Shown: positions 6,653-34,013 of the stretch, one piece after another
Numbering within the stretch: the stretch's first letter is position 1
Layout of the letters: the number at the start of each line of letters is the position of its first letter
The notes under the pieces: model-generated
What the model was told of the DNA's origin: nothing
Databases searched by the model: none
Seen by the model: only the letters and a program-made list of their open reading frames with translations
Source of the DNA: Marivirga arenosa
GTDB taxonomy: Bacteria > Bacteroidota > Bacteroidia > Cytophagales > Cyclobacteriaceae
Reading direction: 5' to 3'
Length of the DNA: 64,000 nucleotides
Assembly (NCBI RefSeq): GCF_030503875.2
Contig: NZ_CP129968.2
Span: 992,001 to 1,056,000 of the forward strand
Translations under genes and position numbers: made by a program

Positions 6653-8179
6653 ATGGAAATCATTAGTAATATTATTAAAGCAGCAATTGAGGTAGGAAGT
6701 AAACTTAAGCGCCATGAAACTCCAGTTGAATCGCAAAAGGAAACCTTAAAGGAGCTACTTCAAAAATCAAAAAATACTGCCTTTGGTAAATATTACGGAT
6801 TTGAATCTTTATTAAACACTAAAAACTTTCAGCAAGAATTTGCGAAGGAGATTCCCTATCATGATTATGATGATATGGAATTCTGGTGGAGAAAATCATA
6901 TGAGGGGAAGCCTGATATTTGTTGGCCAGAAAAAGTAGATAATTTTGCAGTAAGCTCAGGCACTACGGGCCATAGTAAACATATACCCGTGACAGATGAA
7001 ATGTTGGAAAGCATTCGTAATGCTGGTTTGCAGCAGGTATTGAGTTTATCTAATTTTAAAGATCTCCCTGAAAGCTTTTATACTAAGCAAATTCTAATGC
7101 TAGGCTCTAGCACTAATCTAGATGAAAAAGCGGGACATCTTGAAGGTGAAATAAGTGGGATAAGCGCTGCAAATATACCAAATTGGTTTCATGCTTTCTA
7201 TAAACCAGGTCAAGAAATAAGCAGTATCGATGATTGGGATAGCAGAGTTGAAGCCATTGCAAAAGAAGCCAAAAATTGGGATATAGGATCTATTTCAGGA
7301 ATTCCTTCCTGGATTGAACTAATGCTCCAGCGTGTGATGGAATATCATAAGGTTGATTCTATCCATGATATTTGGCCGAATCTTGCGGTTTATACTTCTG
7401 GTGGTGTAGCACTTGATCCCTACAAAAAAAGCTTTGAGAAGCTATTCAGTAAACCAGTACAATACATCGATACTTATCTAGCCTCTGAGGGTTATTTGGC
7501 TACTCAGGTAAGGCCTGAAACAGATGCTATGCAATTGATCTATGATAATGGTGTCTATTTTGAATTTGTGCCCTTTGATGAAGATAGCATATTAGAATCA
7601 GGAAAGATAAATCCAGAGAAAAAAGCACTCAACATTTCTCAGGTTGAAGAAGGTAAAGAGTACATTTTATTGATATCAACGGTAAGTGGAACCTGGCGCT
7701 ATATGATTGGGGATACTATAAAATTTACTGATGTAGGTCGATCAGAAATAAAAATCACAGGTAGAACAAAATTCTTTCTTAACGTTGTGGGTTCTCAACT
7801 TTCAGTCAATAAAATGGATGATGCTATTGAAAGTTTAAATGAAGAATTTCCTATTAATATTAAAGAATTTACTGTGGCTGCAGTTAAAGAAAATGATGAA
7901 TACATTCACCATTGGTATTTAGGAGTGGAGGATTTGAATAAAGGTTTTGATCATTCAGAAATAAAAGATCATTTAGACCAAAAACTTAAGAACAATAATA
8001 AAAATTATAAAGTTGCTCGAGATAAGGCATTAAAAGATGTTAAAGTTGATATTGTTTCTGTAGATCAATTTATTGCTTGGAATGATCAGAATAAGAAAAA
8101 GGGCGGACAAGTAAAGATGGCTAAAGTTATGAAAGAGGAGGCCTTTAGAGAATGGCAGGAATTTATAGCCAATCAATAA
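6653..8179 (+). CDS. GH3-family acyl-adenylating enzyme
   Basis: Bacterial relative of plant GH3 acyl-acid-amido synthetases (ANL superfamily), which adenylate a carboxylic acid and join it to an amine. Visible motifs are the ATP-phosphate loop SSGTTGHSKHIP, YTSGGVALDPY, the YxxSE-type motif YLASEG, and YMIGDTIKF, followed by a smaller C-terminal domain. I chose the ATG at 6653 (508 residues), because the longer reading from 6590 adds residues that overlap the upstream phosphatase and lack conservation signs. Substrate is unknown; bacterial members are largely uncharacterised. Confidence 0.85.
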   Translation: MEIISNIIKAAIEVGSKLKRHETPVESQKETLKELLQKSKNTAFGKYYGFESLLNTKNFQQEFAKEIPYHDYDDMEFWWRKSYEGKPDICWPEKVDNFAVSSGTTGHSKHIPVTDEMLESIRNAGLQQVLSLSNFKDLPESFYTKQILMLGSSTNLDEKAGHLEGEISGISAANIPNWFHAFYKPGQEISSIDDWDSRVEAIAKEAKNWDIGSISGIPSWIELMLQRVMEYHKVDSIHDIWPNLAVYTSGGVALDPYKKSFEKLFSKPVQYIDTYLASEGYLATQVRPETDAMQLIYDNGVYFEFVPFDEDSILESGKINPEKKALNISQVEEGKEYILLISTVSGTWRYMIGDTIKFTDVGRSEIKITGRTKFFLNVVGSQLSVNKMDDAIESLNEEFPINIKEFTVAAVKENDEYIHHWYLGVEDLNKGFDHSEIKDHLDQKLKNNNKNYKVARDKALKDVKVDIVSVDQFIAWNDQNKKKGGQVKMAKVMKEEAFREWQEFIANQ

Positions 8180-8200
8180 GTCCGAATAGAATAGAGTTTA

Positions 8201-8208
8201 TATCTTTG
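8201..8208 (+). promoter_or_regulatory. Bacteroidota -7 promoter element (TATCTTTG)
   Basis: TATCTTTG matches the TAnnTTTG -7 element of the Bacteroidota primary sigma factor and lies 25 bases before the epimerase ATG. No convincing -33 TTG is seen at the right distance. Confidence 0.4.
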
Positions 8209-8233
8209 CCTTCAATTCAAATAAGCTTTAAGG

Positions 8234-9196
8234 ATGTCAAAAAAGAATATCATAATTACTGGCGGTGCAGGTTTTATAGGCTCTAATTTAGTTGCTAAAT
8301 ACCTAGAAGATGACAGAGTAGGCAAAGTAAGAGTAATTGACAACCTCTCAAATGGATATTATAGTAATATCAAAGAATTTGAAGGACATCCGAAATTTGA
8401 GTTTTTTGAAGAGGATATCTGTGATTATGATAAGATGTTGGAATTGACCAAAGGCTTTGATTTAATTAGTCATCAAGCTGCATTAGGATCAGTTCCGCGT
8501 TCTATAGAAAACCCAATGTTAAGTACTAAGGTGAATATTGATGGAACCGTCAATATTTTGCACGCTGCTGTACAGAATAAAATTGATAGAGTAGTTCTAG
8601 CTTGTTCTTCCAGTACTTATGGAGATAGCCCTAACTTACCTAAGCAAGAAGATATTATCGGAAAGCCCTTAAGTCCGTATGCAGTTACTAAATATGCAGT
8701 AGAATTATATGCTGAAGTATTTCAGAAAACCTATGGATTAGATTTTATTGGCTTACGGTATTTCAACATTTTTGGCCCCAGGCAAAATCCGGACAACCCT
8801 TATGCTGCGGTAATACCGATCTTTTGTAAAGCTTTTATTCACGATAATACACCAACCATAAATGGTGATGGTCATACCAGTAGAGACTTTACTTTTGTTG
8901 AAAATGCATTGCATGCAAATGATTTGGCCTTATTTACTGAAAACAAGGAAGCTTTAAATCAAATTTACAATGTAGCTTGTGGTGACCAGATGAGCCTAAA
9001 TGATATGATTTCTTTATTGAATGAAATTAGTGGCAAATCAATTGAGCCAAATTATGGACCAGAACGACCAGGAGATGTAAAACACTCAAAAGCGGACATT
9101 TCTAAAATTGCAAATCTTTTAGGTTATACGCCACAAGTTCGTTTTAAAGAAGGTTTGGCGAGAGTATATGATTGGTATAAAGAAATGGGCTTTTAA
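8234..9196 (+). CDS. NAD-dependent nucleotide-sugar epimerase (WbpP/TviC-like)
   Basis: Extended short-chain dehydrogenase that probably interconverts UDP-GlcNAc and UDP-GalNAc (or UDP-glucose/galactose) at C4. Evidence is the Rossmann motif GGAGFIGSN, the SSSTYG serine, the catalytic pair in YAVTK, HQAALGSVPRSI and LRYFNIFGPRQNPDNPYAAV. The ALGSVPRSI segment and the short 320-residue form resemble WbpP-type UDP-HexNAc 4-epimerases more than GalE. No other glycan genes lie beside it, so the pathway (capsule or O-antigen) is inferred only from the family. Confidence 0.85.
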   Translation: MSKKNIIITGGAGFIGSNLVAKYLEDDRVGKVRVIDNLSNGYYSNIKEFEGHPKFEFFEEDICDYDKMLELTKGFDLISHQAALGSVPRSIENPMLSTKVNIDGTVNILHAAVQNKIDRVVLACSSSTYGDSPNLPKQEDIIGKPLSPYAVTKYAVELYAEVFQKTYGLDFIGLRYFNIFGPRQNPDNPYAAVIPIFCKAFIHDNTPTINGDGHTSRDFTFVENALHANDLALFTENKEALNQIYNVACGDQMSLNDMISLLNEISGKSIEPNYGPERPGDVKHSKADISKIANLLGYTPQVRFKEGLARVYDWYKEMGF

Positions 9197-9350
9197 AGGG
9201 AATGCTATCTTAATCCTTCAGGACTTGTAAAACATCATCAATAATTAATCTTTTTTAATCTTCGGAAATTTATAGTCGAATCATTTAACAATTTGATTAT
9301 AAATTGATTATATTTTGAATGCTTTCGTTCTATACTTTGTATTAATAGAA

Positions 9351-9590
9351 ATGCTAGAGACATTCATCAATTATATCGTTGAGCATCCTGATTACCTTGT
9401 GCTAACCGCTAGCTGTGCATTTCTTGTGTCTTATTTTATAAGATGGATGTTTAAAAATGGTAACAATTCTGATGATGATGAAGGAGGAGGAGGTGGAGGT
9501 TCTAATGAAAATGATGATGATCCTGTTTTAGATTTACCGCCTGGTGTTTGCTTACCTAAGGACAAACCAGAACCTGAATTGATGTCTTGA
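9351..9590 (+). CDS. Small membrane protein with Asp/Gly-rich tail
   Basis: A 79-residue protein I do not recognise. It has one transmembrane helix (about residues 14-32, LVLTASCAFLVSYFIRWMF), then a low-complexity segment of Asp, Glu and six consecutive Gly, then a Pro-rich end (LDLPPGVCLPKDKPEPE). I prefer the ATG at 9351; an earlier ATG at 9315 is possible and adds 12 hydrophobic residues. The low-complexity DNA is built from GAT and GGA triplets. Confidence 0.55.
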   Translation: MLETFINYIVEHPDYLVLTASCAFLVSYFIRWMFKNGNNSDDDEGGGGGGSNENDDDPVLDLPPGVCLPKDKPEPELMS

Positions 9591-9761
9591 TATTTAATAC
9601 TTCATCTTAAAACTTACAAGCACTTTGATTCCAAAGCCTTGTACACTATTTTTGCAATAATTTTAATGGGGAATCAACTATATAAAGAAAATTTAGTTTA
9701 TATAACCCTAAGAGTACCCATCGTTGTGAAATAATATTTTATAGAACATAAAAATCCAGTC

Positions 9762-28000: not shown

Positions 28001-28138
28001 AATACCTCTCCATTGGAGAGCGTCATAAAGTTTCTCGTCATATTGAGTGGTAGAAGCACTTTTGCGATTTCGCTGAGCTTCTACTGTTTGTATTTGGAAT
28101 AGGAAGATTATTCCAACTAAAAAGTATAGTTTCTTCAT
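25013..28138 (-). CDS. Large secreted BNR/VPS10 (sortilin-like) beta-propeller protein
   Basis: A 1041-residue exported protein (signal peptide ending VEA, about residue 21). Residues about 40-740 contain many Asp-box motifs (SVDAGKNWEHM, STDGGKTWDRK, STDSGENWTKL, SKDGGENWENV, SFDDGASWQDF), as in ten-bladed sortilin/VPS10 propellers. A C-terminal ~300-residue region adds a beta domain and helices. It is often annotated as glycosyl hydrolase, but no sialidase-type catalytic set is evident, so binding or an unknown activity is equally possible. No T9SS sorting domain. Single-gene unit. Confidence 0.88.
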   Translation of the reverse strand: MKKLYFLVGIIFLFQIQTVEAQRNRKSASTTQYDEKLYDALQWRGIGPYRGGRSAAVTGVTGQPNLYYMGSTGGGVWRTKDGGNTWESISDGHFGGSIGAVAVAESDPNVIYVGGGEKTLRGNMSYGYGVYKSVDAGKNWEHMGLDNSRHISRIRIHPQNPDIVYAAVMGDIFKDSPERGVYKSTDGGKTWDRKLFANSRAGAVDLILDPNNPRIMYASTWNVRRTPYSFSSGGPGSDIWKSTDSGENWTKLSENEGLPKGTWGISGITVSPQNSNRVWAIIENDNGGVFRSDDAGKTWKKTNDDRALRQRAWYYTRIYADTQDEDMVYVVNVDYHKSKDGGKSFEAFRAPHGDHHDMWIDPNDNQRMIMADDGGAQVSFDGGENWSTYMNQNTAQFYRVTTDDHFPFRIYGAQQDNSTVRIAHRTTGSVVGEQDWESTAGGESAHLAIDEENNEVVYGGSYDGFLTRYNHSSEEIRAINVWPDNPMGHGAEEMKYRFQWNFPIFTSPHDPNKLYTASNHLHVTTNEGQTWETISPDLTRNDPSKLGPSGGPITKDNTSVEYYCTIFAAIESPYEEGLLWTGSDDGLVHVSKDGGENWENVTPPDMPKWIMINSIEASPFTKGGAYIAATSYKNGDYRPYLYKTKDYGKTWTKIVNGIANDHFTRVLRADPKSPGILYAGTETKMYISFDDGASWQDFQLNLPIVPITDLTIKDNHLIAATQGRGFWLIDDLTVLHQLGAAKAIMDKMNMDYHIFNPKITYRIGGRSRESKTAGTNMPSGVITYFYAKDTAAADTVKLIYNEMGGDTIQVFSTHPDKKKNEKKLEVKPGSNQHIWNMQYPGAESFDGMILWWSSLSGPTALPGDYEVSLVVNGKGQGTQVATIKKDPRSSASYDDLKAQFDFQQDVIAKLSETNLAIKDIRRARVQIEDVIKKADADTVKSMGKSILKNMKDIEETLYQTKNRSRQDPLNYPIRLNNKLGHLNSLMGMGDNRPTDSAIEFKKEITARIDEQLDALNKILNEDVAAFNDLVEANQVKAVKLD

Positions 28139-28253
28139 ATTTAAAATGGATTTTTCTTCAATCTATTTTAAATACTTTAGAGTTGCCACTAAATTTTTAT
28201 AAGTGGTGTGTGGAATTAATGATAAATTTTAATCATCATATTGGGTAGAAATT

Positions 28254-28291
28254 AAAAAAGGGTTACAAACTTAAGTCTGTAACCCCTTTTT
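28254..28291 (-). terminator. Terminator at the end of the tRNA-Val island operon
   Basis: A long hairpin near 28254-28291 with about 18 of 19 bases paired (core GGGTTACA...TGTAACCC), A run and T run on opposite sides. Layout (terminator next to a tRNA 3' piece) mirrors 31091-31210, so it may be the original terminator of tRNA-Val. Confidence 0.8.
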
Positions 28292-28298
28292 ATAATTG

Positions 28299-28341
28299 TG
28301 GGATTAGTAGGATTCGAAACTATGACCCTCTGCTTATAAGG
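28299..28341 (-). pseudogene. tRNA-Val 3'-half remnant
   Basis: Matches the 3' half of tRNA-Val at 31136-31210 (acceptor 3' strand, T arm, variable loop, part of the anticodon arm). The first 22 bases from 28297 are identical to 31134-31155; then mismatches accumulate, and the homology stops at the anticodon loop. No D arm or 5' acceptor strand follows. It reads as the displaced end left when an element inserted in the tRNA gene. Confidence 0.75.
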
Positions 28342-28438
28342 ATTTAGTAAGGATCTGTATATGAGAGTGTTATAAAATTACGCAATTAATTAGTTTCTCT
28401 TTATTTCATAATTAACGCTTTTACGCTAGTTATGTGAT

Positions 28439-29023
28439 TCAATCAGATGCCGTTGCAATTTCATATTCACCAGTTGCTTCATCTGAATCAACCGTTTCTT
28501 TAAACCTATTAATTATTTCAACTCTTATAGTTCCATAACCATTATCTATTTGTGCGGATATATAATAAAAGTCATCTTCAAATGGTTCATCATATTCAAT
28601 TGTGTAAGGCAAGTCAACAGTACTTTGACCTGTACCGCCAGAGCTTGTTTCCCAGGTTAAACTAGCACGTTCAGCTCCATTAGATCCTATTATATTATAT
28701 TGGAGGTAAAAGTCATAGATTGCAAAAATGAATTCACCATCATTACTATATTCAAAATAAACAAACTTCTCTTCATCAGATGGTAATTCAAATTTATAAT
28801 TATCGGTGATGCTGCCATATTCTTTTAATGGCATACTTTCGCCTGGTTCAACTAATATTTCCTCACGATTGCTTTTCTCAATGACCAATATAGTTTCTGA
28901 AGTCCTATTGTAAATACTGATAGGTTCTGGCCCAGAGTTGTCTGTGTTATTAAGATCACTACAAGAATAAAACCACATAGTCACTGAACATAGAAATAAT
29001 ATTTTTTTAGGCAGCTTCTTCAT
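28439..29023 (-). CDS. Island lipoprotein of unknown function
   Basis: A 194-residue lipoprotein, last gene of the island operon. Signal peptide ends in WFYSC with lipidated Cys21. The mature part is beta-rich and acidic (start DLNNTDNSGPEPISIYN), with no recognisable domain. The ATG is 2 bases after the stop of the preceding 91-residue gene, so the two are translationally coupled. Confidence 0.75.
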   Translation of the reverse strand: MKKLPKKILFLCSVTMWFYSCSDLNNTDNSGPEPISIYNRTSETILVIEKSNREEILVEPGESMPLKEYGSITDNYKFELPSDEEKFVYFEYSNDGEFIFAIYDFYLQYNIIGSNGAERASLTWETSSGGTGQSTVDLPYTIEYDEPFEDDFYYISAQIDNGYGTIRVEIINRFKETVDSDEATGEYEIATASD

Positions 29024-29025
29024 CT

Positions 29026-29301
29026 TTAACTTTTATCATTAAAATAAGTAATGCATTTATTAAGAATAGCTTCAAATCTATTTAATGTAGACATGAAACT
29101 GGTATTTTCTTTAGGTACTGGAAGTAATTTTTCCAAATCTTTGCTTAGAGTAAGTAGATATTCCTCTGAATTAATTGTATAGTGCGTAGCTTTGATTAGA
29201 AGTGTCAATTCATTTGCAGAATAATTGGATTGAAATGGCACTCCAATATTATCCAGCTTGGCATTGATACTGTTTAACGTACTTATTTTCTGATCATCCA
29301 T
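29026..29301 (-). CDS. Small helical protein, 91 aa, island operon
   Basis: No signal peptide or membrane segment. Predicted helical from pattern (ISTLNSINAKLDNI, SANELTLLIKATHYTI, LTLSKDLEKLLPV, LNRFEAILNKCITYF). Cytoplasmic by default. Coupled to the lipoprotein gene downstream (2-base gap) and 16 bases after the 40-residue ORF. No family recognised; could be an antitoxin-size partner or regulator, which the sequence does not show. Confidence 0.65.
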   Translation of the reverse strand: MDDQKISTLNSINAKLDNIGVPFQSNYSANELTLLIKATHYTINSEEYLLTLSKDLEKLLPVPKENTSFMSTLNRFEAILNKCITYFNDKS

Positions 29302-29317
29302 TGTCTTCTCTTCTTAG

Positions 29318-29440
29318 TTATGATTTTCTTATTTGTACTTTATACTTGTTAGTATTTTCTGAAATCTTCCCCATCTCATACCCAGAATAAAAGCAAGCTG
29401 CTCCAAAAATCAAGGTAAATCTACTGGTTCTTTTAGTCAT
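29318..29440 (-). CDS. 40-residue membrane microprotein, island operon
   Basis: A short ORF starting MTKRTSRFTLIFGAACFYSG. Its ATG overlaps the stop of the upstream gene in the ATGA arrangement, strong evidence of real translation. It has a basic N-terminus, one short hydrophobic segment (residues about 8-21), and a polar basic end (KYKVQIRKS). The gap to the next gene is 16 bases. Function unknown; its position between the membrane winged-helix protein and the 91-residue protein suggests it belongs to the same complex or control circuit. Confidence 0.6.
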   Translation of the reverse strand: MTKRTSRFTLIFGAACFYSGYEMGKISENTNKYKVQIRKS

Positions 29441-29988
29441 TGGTTTTGGTTTAAATTATTTATTGAATCTTCTTTTACAGTTTTATTAAAAATGAGAAAT
29501 AAAGAATCAATGATATCTTGAGAGTCATCAGAATTCTTATTAGTTACATATTTATGCTCTATCTTCTGGATTTGATTTTCTAGGTCAATAATTTTAGATG
29601 TAGTCTTTGCATTATTACTGATAACATTGATTACTGAAATTGCACTTATTATAATAGCTAAAATTGATACCCATAAATTATTTTGAGTTGACTTCAATTC
29701 CATTATAAACTTATATCCATCATGAGATATACGATATAATGCAACGTCATAAGTGTTAAAGGGAGGCTCACTGTTTATTATCTGAGACTGCTCTCGTACC
29801 ACAAGTCCATCATCGACCAACCATTCAAGACAATTTAAAAAGTATGCGTAATTTTTTAATTTTAATTTCTTAAGAAGTAGGTCAGCTTGGAATCTATCAC
29901 CAGAGTTATAGTACAAGTATTTCAGAACTCTGATAAAGTAGTTTTTCTTCCTTAAGAATGGGAACCGAATAAACTGTGGTACTTTCAT
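29437..29988 (-). CDS. Winged-helix/TM/coiled-coil protein, island paralogue B
   Basis: A 183-residue protein. Residues about 15-98 look like a winged helix (FIRVLKYLYYNSGDRFQADLLL, LEWLVDDGLVV, then the wing end YRISHDGYKFI). A transmembrane helix covers about 105-124, then a short coiled coil (DLENQIQKIEHK, 135-146) and a conserved IIDSL (159-163). The same layout at the same residue numbers is found in the neighbouring 185-residue protein, so they are paralogues. Topology resembles ToxR-type membrane regulators. DNA binding is inferred, not shown. Confidence 0.7.
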   Translation of the reverse strand: MKVPQFIRFPFLRKKNYFIRVLKYLYYNSGDRFQADLLLKKLKLKNYAYFLNCLEWLVDDGLVVREQSQIINSEPPFNTYDVALYRISHDGYKFIMELKSTQNNLWVSILAIIISAISVINVISNNAKTTSKIIDLENQIQKIEHKYVTNKNSDDSQDIIDSLFLIFNKTVKEDSINNLNQNQ

Positions 29989-30076
29989 AACTCCAACTTT
30001 TTTTCTACGCGCTGAAAGCTTTTATCTCAATAATGTCTTCTAGTATGTAATTGATTCTTTTAATATTATAATTCAC

Positions 30077-30634
30077 CTACTTACCAATTGATTCTTTATG
30101 AAAGCCTTTATTAGACGAATTATTTACTACAGAGTCATGGAGTCTCAACAAAAGAGAATCAATGATGGCTTTTGGATCACTCAGATCTGCATTAAGCTTT
30201 TGCTCCATCTGATTTATTCTACCTTCTAGATCAGAATAGGAATCATCGGTTAAATCTGAAGTGATCACATAAATTACTGATAAAGCACTAATTACAATGG
30301 CTATTATTGGTAAACGATTTGAAAGAATAATATTCTTGTTTTTTTCCTTTCCTATTTTATCCCGTTCATTAAGCCAATTTTGATAACCTTGACTTATGAC
30401 TTGATACCCAAAGTCAGTAAGTTCAAAATAGTAAGCAGGTTCTCCATGTGATCGAATAATATTTTGGTCTTTTAATATAGTTAGAATATGCAAACTATCT
30501 TGATAAGCCTCGTCATAGAAATCATATCCATTATTTTCAATAGCGGATGATATTTGGTCAGAGTTACACTTTCCGCTATTCTTATGAAGGATTTCTAAAA
30601 TTATTTCAATAATTTTCTTTTGCTTATCATTCAT
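30077..30634 (-). CDS. Winged-helix/TM/coiled-coil protein, island paralogue A
   Basis: A 185-residue protein, first gene of the five-gene operon. N-terminal helix-turn-helix-like part (KKIIEIILEILHKNSGKCNS, ILTILKDQNIIRS, then YFELTDFGYQVI), a basic juxtamembrane stretch (DKIGKEKNKNIILSNR), a transmembrane helix (about 108-126), an acidic turn, a coiled coil DLEGRINQMEQK (135-146) and IIDSL (157-161). Positive-inside logic puts the winged helix in the cytoplasm and the coiled coil outside. Paralogue of the next gene, 88 bases downstream. Confidence 0.72.
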   Translation of the reverse strand: MNDKQKKIIEIILEILHKNSGKCNSDQISSAIENNGYDFYDEAYQDSLHILTILKDQNIIRSHGEPAYYFELTDFGYQVISQGYQNWLNERDKIGKEKNKNIILSNRLPIIAIVISALSVIYVITSDLTDDSYSDLEGRINQMEQKLNADLSDPKAIIDSLLLRLHDSVVNNSSNKGFHKESIGK

Positions 30635-30702
30635 GATTTTCAGGTTTTGGTTTTAACTCTATGAATAAATATAAAGGATTAAGATGTATTAAACCAACAG
30701 GG

Positions 30703-30972
<270 letters not shown>

Positions 30973-30995
30973 CTAACCAAAATAAGTAAAAATTT

Positions 30996-31076
30996 AGTTA
31001 TTAGGCATTCGAACTTCCGACCCTCCCGACTAACTAGTCGGGATGCTCAAAACTAAACTAATAGAGCTATAATGCT
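30996..31076 (-). pseudogene. tRNA-Val pseudogene, anticodon arm replaced by a hairpin
   Basis: Aligns with tRNA-Val over acceptor, D arm and T arm, with many substitutions. In place of the anticodon arm (17 bases in the true tRNA) there is a 20-base palindrome, TCCCGACTAACTAGTCGGGA (31024-31043 on the plus strand). The exchange is exact at both borders, between GAGCA and GGGTC on the tRNA strand. Confidence 0.65.
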
Positions 31077-31090
31077 AGATTTTTTAATCA

Positions 31091-31126
31091 TAAAAAAAGG
31101 CTTACAAATATTATTTGTAAGCCTTT
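31091..31126 (-). terminator. Terminator of tRNA-Val
   Basis: Perfect 14-bp stem AAAGGCTTACAAAT / ATTTGTAAGCCTTT, three-base loop, seven T on the minus strand, ten bases past the tRNA 3' end. Confidence 0.9.
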
Positions 31127-31135
31127 CGTAGAATG

Positions 31136-31210
31136 TGGGATTAGTAGGATTCGAACCTACGACCCCCTGCTTGTAAGGCAGGTGCTCTAAACCAACTGAG
31201 CTATAATCCC
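31136..31210 (-). tRNA. tRNA-Val (anticodon TAC)
   Basis: A complete 75-base cloverleaf: acceptor GGGATTA/TAATCCC, D arm GCTC/GAGC, anticodon arm CCTGC-CTTACAA-GCAGG giving anticodon TAC (valine), five-base variable loop, T arm GTAGG-TTCGAAT-CCTAC, discriminator A. CCA is not encoded. Serves as the integration target of the neighbouring island. Confidence 0.95.
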
Positions 31211-31231
31211 ATTAATTATTTTGTATCAATT

Positions 31232-31305
31232 GATTAGTAGGTTTGAACCTACGACCCTCCCGACTGTTTGGTCGGGATGCTCTAAACCAACTGAACTATA
31301 ACCCC
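31232..31305 (-). pseudogene. tRNA-Val-like pseudogene with foreign anticodon hairpin
   Basis: Directly 5' of the true tRNA-Val. D arm and T arm are close to tRNA-Val, but the last acceptor pairs are lost, and the anticodon arm is replaced by TCCCGACTGTTTGGTCGGGA (plus strand). The resulting loop lacks U33 and a normal seven-base anticodon loop, so it cannot decode. The 5' and 3' borders of the exchange match those in the pseudogene at 30996. Confidence 0.65.
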
Positions 31306-31520
31306 ATTATTTTTTCCTTTTTTACAACCGTTTGTTGTTGTTTGGGAATGCAAATGTAGTACTGCTTTTTATATTTACAAATTGATTTTATAAAATAATT
31401 CAAAAAAAAAATCAAGCTATATTTTATTGATTTGAAAATCAGGTCATTACGGTTATAAAAATTTTATTTGGATTTATATCTCTTATTCGCAAATTTCGTT
31501 CTTAAATTAAAAATACCATA
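31306..31520. other. AT-rich intergenic region upstream of AsmA gene
   Basis: Nothing genic seen. It must carry promoters for the tRNA locus (minus strand) and the AsmA gene (plus strand); no clear -7 element is found. Confidence 0.4.
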
Positions 31521-34013
31521 TTGAAGTACCTGAGGAAGTTTATTTTATATTTTACTCTATTTTTTATTCTGCTTTTTGCGAGTGGTTCGGCTTATCTGTA
31601 CTACCATCAGGATGATTTAATTGATCAAATTCTAACAGAAATTAATAAATCGGTTCAAACGCCTGTGCAGGTTAGTAAGATTGATATTAACTGGTGGACT
31701 GATTTCCCCAATATATCGTTAAGATTTCAGGATGTTTTTATTCAAGAATCTTTACCCAATAGTAAGAAACCGCTTGCCCAGTTAGAGGAATTAGCGCTTT
31801 CATTTAATGCTTTAAATTTTATAAAGGAAGATTACTCCTTTGAAAAAATTATTCTTAAAAAAGGAAAGCTGAATATTCGACTGACAAAATCAGGTAAACG
31901 GAATTATGATATTTTAAAAAATGACACCAATTCATCAAAGAATAATGGGGTTAATTTCAATTTAAAGAATATTGATATTCAATCTGTTGATGTGGTTTAT
32001 GCTGATGATGGCCTGGATCAAAATTACCATATTTATGCTGAGGCTTTAATGGCGAGTTTGAATAAGGTTGAAAATAACTTTAAAATTAAAGCTAATGGAA
32101 AGTTAAAAACTAGAGCCATCCAACTGGGCGATCTTCGCTATTTTGAAAACAAAAATTTGAAAATAAATGCAGACCTAAATTATATACAAGGAAATGAAAT
32201 TGTAGAAATAGGGCCTTCTCAATTGTTTTTGTCTAATAATGAATTTCAGCTTGCTGGCGATTACAAAATTAATACAAGCGAAATGAACTTGCTGGTAAAA
32301 GGAATAGAGTCTGATTTTTCAACCATCATATCTTTACTGCCCGAGAAATACAGGAATTATATTTCAGAATATGAAAGTAAAGGGAATGCAGAGTTTGAAG
32401 GTAGTATTAAAGGAAAACTCACTGCCAATCAATCTCCCAAAGTAAACTTTAATTTTAACGTTAATCAGGCTTCTTTATACCATGCTGATTATGATACTCG
32501 ATTTGAAGATTTAAGTTTCCATGGAAATTTTAATAACGGAAAATATCATAATTTGAGAAGTTCTCAATTAGTGTTAAAAGATATTTCAGGAACGCTTAAA
32601 GGCAAATCCTTTACTGCCGATTTAGGAGTTAAAGATTTTGAGAACTATTTGATTAATCTATCCACAGAAGGACAAATATCTACCCCTGACTTGATCAGCT
32701 TTTTCCCAAACCGTGAAAAGTATTCAGAACTAGAAGGAGCTATAGATTTTAATATAAGCTTAGCCGGTTATTTGGATGATTTTAAACAAGCATCTACCGC
32801 TTCAAGAATAAATAATTCAGGAGAAATTATATTACATAATCTATCAGGTGTTTATCAAGATTATCCTTTGCCTATAAAAAATGTGAATGGAAGATTGATG
32901 TTTAATAAGAATGATATTGCCATTAATCATTTACAAGGTGATATAGGAGAATCGGATATTGAATTGAGTGGTTTTTTCTTAAATATATTTCCATATTTCC
33001 TGAAAGAAAATCAAGCCTTATTAATTGAGGCTGAAACGATCAGTCAAAATATTAACCTGAATGAGCTTTTATCAGGCTTGTCGAACGAAGAGAATACAAT
33101 AGAAAAGCAGGAGGAATCATTCAAATTTGCTTTGAGTCCTAAGTTGCAATTGGACTTCACTTCTCATATTGAACATTTAGAATTTAAGCGCTTTAAAGCC
33201 AGAAATATTTCTGGAGAAATAGAGCTTTCCGATCAAATATTGAAGGCATCTGATCTAGAATTAGGAAGCTGTGGAGGTGAAATGACATTAATCGCAACAG
33301 TGAATGCCAAAAAAGAGAATGAAATTTTAGTCAATACATCTGCTGATTTTAATGGCTTAAATGTGGATAGCATTTTCTACACCTTTGAGAACTTTCGCCA
33401 GGATTTCCTTACCGACCAGCACCTTAAAGGTAAAATCGATGCCAAAGTTAAAGCATTCATCATGTTGGATCAGAAGCTTAATTTTCAATCAGATGTATTC
33501 AAAGCTACTATTGATGCTAAAATTGAGAATGGTGAGCTTAATAATTTCGAGCCTATGCTGAGCTTGTCTGATTATGTAAGAGAAGATGAATTGACCAATT
33601 TGAGTTTTGGGGAGATGAGGAATACAATTGAGATCAAGAATGAAGTAATTTACTTGCCCGAGATGTCTATTCAGTCAAATGTTTCTAACATATTGATTCA
33701 GGGAACGCACACATTCGATCAGGAAATTAATTATAGATTATTAGTACCTTTAAAAAACTATAAAAGAAAAGATAAAGACGAAGCTTTTGGTGCTATTGAA
33801 GAAGAAAAGGATTATTCAAGCCTATATTTAAAAATTGAAGGTACAACGGATGACTTTGAAGTAAGCTGGGATAAAAAGCGATCTTTGAAATCTATAGCAG
33901 ATAGGATAAAAGAAGAAGGTAAAACCCTCAAGAAAATAATTAAAGGAGAAAAGCTTCCTGAAGATGAAAATGAAGAACTTGAACTTAATGAAGATGAATA
34001 TTTCGATTGGTGA
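31521..34013 (+). CDS. AsmA-family envelope protein
   Basis: An 830-residue protein anchored by one N-terminal transmembrane helix (about residues 7-28), followed by a long beta-rich periplasmic part. The AsmA N-terminal pattern is visible: VQVSKIDINWWTDFPNISLRFQDV and LSFNALNFI, with later AsmA_2-like repeats. AsmA relatives bridge the periplasm and are implicated in phospholipid transport to the outer membrane. The start is TTG at 31521; no in-frame ATG lies near. The 3' end overlaps the next gene. Confidence 0.85.
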   Translation: MKYLRKFILYFTLFFILLFASGSAYLYYHQDDLIDQILTEINKSVQTPVQVSKIDINWWTDFPNISLRFQDVFIQESLPNSKKPLAQLEELALSFNALNFIKEDYSFEKIILKKGKLNIRLTKSGKRNYDILKNDTNSSKNNGVNFNLKNIDIQSVDVVYADDGLDQNYHIYAEALMASLNKVENNFKIKANGKLKTRAIQLGDLRYFENKNLKINADLNYIQGNEIVEIGPSQLFLSNNEFQLAGDYKINTSEMNLLVKGIESDFSTIISLLPEKYRNYISEYESKGNAEFEGSIKGKLTANQSPKVNFNFNVNQASLYHADYDTRFEDLSFHGNFNNGKYHNLRSSQLVLKDISGTLKGKSFTADLGVKDFENYLINLSTEGQISTPDLISFFPNREKYSELEGAIDFNISLAGYLDDFKQASTASRINNSGEIILHNLSGVYQDYPLPIKNVNGRLMFNKNDIAINHLQGDIGESDIELSGFFLNIFPYFLKENQALLIEAETISQNINLNELLSGLSNEENTIEKQEESFKFALSPKLQLDFTSHIEHLEFKRFKARNISGEIELSDQILKASDLELGSCGGEMTLIATVNAKKENEILVNTSADFNGLNVDSIFYTFENFRQDFLTDQHLKGKIDAKVKAFIMLDQKLNFQSDVFKATIDAKIENGELNNFEPMLSLSDYVREDELTNLSFGEMRNTIEIKNEVIYLPEMSIQSNVSNILIQGTHTFDQEINYRLLVPLKNYKRKDKDEAFGAIEEEKDYSSLYLKIEGTTDDFEVSWDKKRSLKSIADRIKEEGKTLKKIIKGEKLPEDENEELELNEDEYFDW

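Follow-up and report, generated by a model that had tools for sequence, protein, structure and literature searches.

A strain-specific five-gene cassette beside a tRNA-Val gene of Marivirga arenosa encodes two proteins with predicted winged-helix heads and a related membrane anchor

The 64,000-nucleotide (nt) stretch of the Marivirga arenosa genome analyzed here (contig NZ_CP129968.2, positions 992,001 to 1,056,000; hereafter the window, with positions counted from its first letter) contains a probably horizontally acquired cassette of approximately 2.4 kb (~28342–30690), which has no integrase and lies inside a degenerate copy of tRNA-Val. It carries five intact open reading frames (ORFs) on the minus strand, from 30634 down to 28439, in the order P1, P2, a 40-amino acid (aa) ORF, a 91-aa protein and a lipoprotein. 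As the first halves of P1 and P2 show no significant likeness in sequence and their second halves are related, the two proteins look like one anchor carrying two different heads. We tentatively favor the view that they are membrane-tethered one-component regulators that pair via this common anchor and act together with the lipoprotein. A first-pass annotation had described the block as an island operon with two paralogous membrane-anchored winged-helix proteins and had compared these to ToxR-type regulators; its observations are largely right, and the winged helix, the single transmembrane (TM) helix, the coiled coil and the island-type location are supported, but neither a ToxR assignment nor paralogy over the full length is. 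The new points are the modularity of anchor and heads and the setting next to a tRNA gene and a GIY-YIG ORF.

P1 (P0001; 185 aa, 30077–30634, minus strand) and P2 (P0003; 183 aa, 29437–29988, minus strand) each comprise a predicted winged helix (residues ~1–80 and ~15–100, respectively), followed by a common anchor module that consists of a TM helix, a DLE coiled coil and an IIDSL tail. The best 19-residue hydropathy, 2.36 at residues 108–126 of P1 and 2.55 at residues 105–123 of P2, indicates a single TM helix in each. The claim that both proteins share one layout at the same residue numbers is accurate for the DLExxIxxxExK motif (residues 135–146 in both) and nearly so for the TM helix; the IIDSL tail is found at 157–161 in P1 and at 159–163 in P2. 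The second halves are related beyond chance, with a local alignment score of 103 against a maximum of 52 in 2000 shuffles, whereas the N-terminal halves show no significant similarity (score 37, reached by 96 of the 2000 shuffles; hhalign probability 0.2%), so that paralogy is shown for the anchor half only. The only relative of P1 and P2 that was found, P0002, joins a P2-like head to a P1-like anchor. The charges around the TM helix of P1 (five positive and one negative before it, one positive and five negative after it) point to an N-in orientation. Behind the TM helix follow approximately 60 residues of coiled coil and tail, modeled with low confidence.

Structure prediction of each protein alone, combined with a fold search, supports the assignment of the heads as winged helices. 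In blocks of 10 residues, the predicted local distance difference test score (pLDDT) is 70–81 for residues 1–80 of P1 and 73–88 for residues 21–100 of P2. With Foldseek, the P2 head matched the PadR regulator Rv3488 (E 1.9e-4, TMt 0.69) and the P1 head matched LmrR (E 9.3e-3, TMt 0.70). Since MarR, Zalpha and other winged helices score like the PadR proteins in this search, the PadR-like fold is not diagnostic, and no PadR sequence model was matched in Pfam (E ≤ 10) or NCBIfam (E ≤ 1). OmpR-type winged helices (Trans_reg_C), which form the heads of ToxR and CadC, open with an N-terminal β-sheet. That P1 and P2 are ToxR-family regulators in the strict sense is very improbable: they do show the succession of a winged helix, a TM helix and some sequence behind it, but both models start with a helix and resemble PadR/MarR folds, no match of Trans_reg_C to the cassette proteins is listed in Pfam at E values up to 10, and a mere ~60 aa lie behind the TM helix.

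The island-type location was borne out by comparison with a second genome of the same species (G191), in which the cassette is absent. The flanks in G191 are 95–97% identical to those of the window and the matches end at positions 28314 and 30690; because of this, the block is an insertion in this strain or, with lower probability, was lost from G191. The cassette adjoins tRNA-Val (tac; 31135–31210, minus strand), behind which follow, on the minus strand, first a hairpin with a T-run and then a tRNA-like sequence (read from the repeats D1 and D4 and not from an Rfam match), a GIY-YIG ORF, a tRNA 5′ half and the cassette itself. The GIY-YIG ORF (82 aa, 30703–30951, minus strand) matches the endonuclease family PF01541 (E 1.3e-15) and lies 184 bp from tRNA-Val. 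The cassette opens with the degenerate tRNA 5′ half (30683–30706, minus strand; 24 nt, 75%) and closes with a copy of tRNA-Val that begins in the anticodon loop and includes the 3′ end (28297–28341, minus strand; 45 nt), which aligns with 31134–31178 at 91%. From the sequence, a hairpin with a T-run can be read after this closing copy as well (~28250–28290). In G191, two GIY-YIG ORFs lie behind tRNA-Val, and the tRNA-like copy after the second of these is interrupted by only ~44 nt. No integrase was found: the interval 28138–31521 contains five ORFs of at least 60 aa, namely the GIY-YIG ORF and all cassette ORFs except the 40-aa one, and none matched an integrase family.

All five ORFs described by the first-pass annotation are present at their minus-strand positions. 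P1 and P2 are separated by 88 nt, P2 and the 40-aa ORF are joined by an ATGA overlap of 4 nt, and gaps of 16 nt and 2 nt precede the 91-aa gene and the lipoprotein gene, respectively. Codon scores of the five ORFs range from 0.012 to 0.175 per codon, whereas the 32 training ORFs average 0.207. As each score is reached by only 1.2–4.7% of 1500 wrong-frame stretches (stop-free, at most 60 codons), all five look coding; the weakest are the 40-aa ORF (4.7%) and P2 (4.1%; 0.012 per codon). A candidate promoter of the Bacteroidota type (30666–30697, minus strand) consists of TTG from 30697, a gap of 21 nt and TATATTTA from 30673, the latter 39 nt upstream of the P1 start; it sits in the tRNA-like 5′ half and its edge.

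The product of the 40-aa ORF (29318–29440, minus strand) had been called a membrane microprotein. This is doubtful, since it is weakly hydrophobic and its best 19-residue hydropathy of 0.87, compared to the values for the TM helices of P1 and P2, is too low for a membrane call. The 91-aa protein (29026–29301, minus strand) matched no family and was found in its own genome only among 192 genomes of the family. The lipoprotein (194 aa, 28439–29023, minus strand) has a signal sequence ending in ..YS-CSDL, with the lipobox assigned by reading, and its profile matched nothing among solved structures at E ≤ 1. In a set of 5.8 billion proteins, searched by shared words with limited sensitivity, two relatives were found beyond its own entry: P0006 and, from Marivirga tractuosa, P0007. 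The mature lipoprotein is identical to these at 155 and 147 of 174 positions, respectively (84–89%); the signal peptides differ, and the switch from variable to conserved sequence is sharp and falls at the lipobox. From the contigs of P0006 and P0007 no relatives of P1, P2 or the 91-aa protein are listed, within the limits of that search. An out-of-frame likeness between the extra N-terminal residues of P0006 and the end of the 91-aa protein, which could have hinted at a 91-aa gene before the P0006 gene as well, was not used, as the back-translation is too ambiguous.

The genes are rare. The P1/P2 profile matched one of 345 phylum genomes at E ≤ 1e-5, namely its own; four of 395 class genomes at E ≤ 0.001, of which all except its own are put down to TM helices, coiled coils or chance; and two of 10 genus genomes at E ≤ 0.01, where the second match is weak and contains a stop. 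P2 alone (E ≤ 0.01) matched four of 196 family genomes, three of them weakly, and the lipoprotein was found in its own genome only among 341 order genomes and among 10 genus genomes. The P1/P2 alignment yielded no confirmed relative in genome_contigs (50 pattern stretches) or in viral contigs (410), and a second scan of genome_contigs was likewise without a relative. In viral contigs, no relative was confirmed for P0002 (6 pattern stretches), and none was found for the lipoprotein or the 91-aa protein. Searches for P2 in plasmids and for P1 in phages gave no confirmed relatives, and that for the lipoprotein in plasmids gave none beyond one partial match of 37%; a plasmid or phage origin, for which these searches offered no relatives, was set aside. 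Within the sensitivity of the searches made, the five genes were not found together in any other genome, and P0002, the lipoprotein relatives and the block in the window are each located on different contigs. The first-pass annotation had tied its proposal to homologues of the five genes being found together; the outcome speaks in part against it, in that the set was not found elsewhere and the lipoprotein occurs without detected partners.

Several weak matches were set aside. Of the weak P1/P2 matches in other genomes, four with a long reading frame were judged from the ORF lists, with no family search. At L004 and L055 the frame encodes a protein of tetratricopeptide type that also has a TM helix and a coiled coil; the match at L057 coincides with an ORF6N/KilA-N-type ORF, and that at L056 with the last part of an ORF of carboxylase type. 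All four were rejected as due to TM helices, coiled coils or chance. The matches L005, L006 and L127 are interrupted by stops. For the five proteins, only weak matches came from Pfam, NCBIfam, PHROGs and PADLOC. That of the type IV secretion system (T4SS) AnkJ model to the P2 coiled coil (19.5 bits, cut-off 300) and those of holin models over the TM helix were taken to reflect composition, and the Rfam match Plastid-ycf2 (31135–31210, plus strand) was rejected, as it lies antisense to the tRNA.

In the arrangement that we tentatively favor, the winged-helix heads would be cytoplasmic, the anchors would pair P1 and P2 as homo- or heterodimers, and the heads would bind DNA and control the genes of the cassette or of the envelope. 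The co-encoded lipoprotein could be the signal partner or the output, with the 91-aa and 40-aa products as accessory factors, and the cassette may be a small envelope-sensing module. A number of observations weigh against this. The mean pLDDT of the whole models, built from three sequences, is mediocre (55 for P1, 65 for P2), and the anchor parts are mostly below 60. The flanks of the P2 TM helix are neutral (two positive and two negative charges on either side) and give no topology signal. The part of P1 before the TM helix is net acidic (13 lysine/arginine versus 16 aspartate/glutamate residues) and gives no hint of DNA binding; because of this acidity, P1 may pair with P2 without binding DNA itself. 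The fold matches of P1 include cullin WHB domains and a ZBP1 domain in a nucleic-acid complex, whose winged helices do not recognize DNA by sequence. Promoter-like sites are not above chance (4 in the 3.4 kb scanned, 3.4 in shuffles) and no operator was identified. Finally, since the lipoprotein occurs in Marivirga tractuosa without detected P1 or P2, a fixed partnership between them is unproven.

Two further explanations have to be weighed against a regulatory pair. The five genes could be an orphan assortment caught at an insertion hotspot, without a joint function, in which the lipoprotein and the anchor module are the only conserved pieces. This is consistent with the separate contigs on which the block, P0002 and the relatives of the lipoprotein lie, with the 88-nt gap between P1 and P2 and with a 91-aa protein for which no relative was found, but it fits poorly with five intact ORFs on one strand with coding-like codon use, with the 4-nt overlap and the gaps of 16 and 2 nt, and with a homologous anchor common to two genes, and we consider it rather unlikely. 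Somewhat less probable still is a role in phage defense or superinfection exclusion, in which the lipoprotein would block entry at the cell surface and the winged-helix pair would act as membrane sensors or effectors, a role in transcription not being required. A strain-specific cassette at a tRNA site, encoding a lipoprotein with a conserved mature part and a variable signal peptide, would suit such a role; against it stand the lack of a weighty PADLOC match (the best, E 0.017, is a CARF model over residues 98–149 of P1) and the viral, phage and plasmid searches described above, which gave no relatives apart from the partial lipoprotein match. If the reading of P1 and P2 as an anchor with exchangeable heads holds, they would exemplify membrane-tethered regulators that are re-targeted by head swapping.

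The setting of the cassette recurs in other Bacteroidota. Small GIY-YIG ORFs like that of the window occur in 37 of 60 family genomes (E ≤ 1e-5) and in 47 of 99 phylum genomes (E ≤ 1e-6). Among the 29 best-scoring loci of the phylum search, 24 have a tRNA gene 0–300 bp upstream on the same strand, and in 16 at least 15 of the 17 nt of the tRNA 3′ end recur in the 500 bp that follow the ORF. Of 2000 random points in 40 long loci, which had themselves been taken around GIY-YIG/tRNA elements, 43 gave a tRNA. In a survey of the family (45 loci of our own choice, 62 GIY-YIG matches), a GIY-YIG ORF lies no more than 300 bp from 46 tRNAs, of which 32 have a downstream copy of their 3′ end and 14 have none. 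The nearest copy is 78–547 bp away in 31 of these 32, a few being neighboring complete tRNA genes, and the 2800 bp in the window is the sole cargo-sized distance. Other tRNAs of the surveyed loci have a 3′ copy in 7 of 19 cases, by reading mostly neighbors in the same arrays, and in a separate count that took in both strands, 33 of 54 loci had a tRNA no more than 400 bp away, with distances misjudged for truncated loci. The closing repeat of the window, at 91%, includes part of the anticodon arm, whereas most element copies are 97–100% identical over shorter stretches. No description of tRNA-associated small GIY-YIG elements in Bacteroidota was found among the results listed in searches of open-licence PMC papers. 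Literature searches likewise gave no paper on islands of Marivirga or on membrane-bound PadR proteins.

In the window and in the other loci (L025–L050, L059–L086, L087–L126, L128–L156), the GIY-YIG ORFs mostly lie tens of bp behind many different tRNAs. The elements form tandem arrays with a period of ~350–390 bp, as in contig C34 of genome G655 (~6994–9757), where eight GIY-YIG matches follow each other at a spacing of ~365 bp. By eye, tRNA-like copies were seen in which the anticodon arm, and sometimes the D or T loop, is swapped for a longer palindrome such as TCCCGAC..GTCGGGA or CCGATAGCTATCGG (window 31008–31056 and 31232–31303; L020, 5710–6330; L032–L048). The copy at 31232–31303 (minus strand), whose anticodon arm is replaced by an extended hairpin, scores 30.6 bits with the Rfam tRNA model (gathering threshold 29).

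It is conceivable, though improbable, that the nuclease substitutes for an integrase, with the tRNA 3′ copy marking the insertion, and that interchangeable heads on a constant anchor, forming a tandem heterodimer, travel as cargo of a GIY-YIG element. If so, the small GIY-YIG/tRNA elements of Bacteroidota would be a gene-delivery system. The insertion context ties orphan cargo to these common elements and suggests a way, open to testing, in which small islands that lack an integrase could spread.

Compared to known systems, P1 and P2 are closest in design to ToxR and CadC, membrane-integrated one-component regulators in which a winged helix and one TM helix are joined to a folded sensor, as here too a single polypeptide combines a winged helix, a TM helix and an additional part. 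Unlike these, their heads resemble PadR/MarR folds instead of OmpR, they end in a short coiled-coil tail and not in a folded sensor, and two such proteins with one common anchor are encoded in tandem. They share the predicted fold of their heads with PadR/MarR regulators such as LmrR and Rv3488, which are soluble; P1 and P2, in contrast, continue into a TM helix and coiled coil and match no PadR sequence model. Like islands at tRNA sites, the cassette adjoins a tRNA, ends on its far side in a direct repeat of the 3′ half of that tRNA and is missing from a genome of the same species, but it differs from integrase-borne islands in that it has no integrase, is flanked by a GIY-YIG ORF on the tRNA side and is closed by a repeat of just 91%. 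For the GIY-YIG elements, SegB of T-even phages may serve as an analogy: this GIY-YIG homing endonuclease is encoded next to tRNAs, and its cleavage is proposed to set off the tandem amplification of a segment that contains tRNA and a truncated segB (PMC13096335). Both systems place a GIY-YIG gene beside tRNA genes and show tandem repeats of the tRNA and nuclease-gene region, and the Bacteroidota ORFs differ from SegB in being chromosomal, ~82 aa long and accompanied by copies of the tRNA 3′ end.
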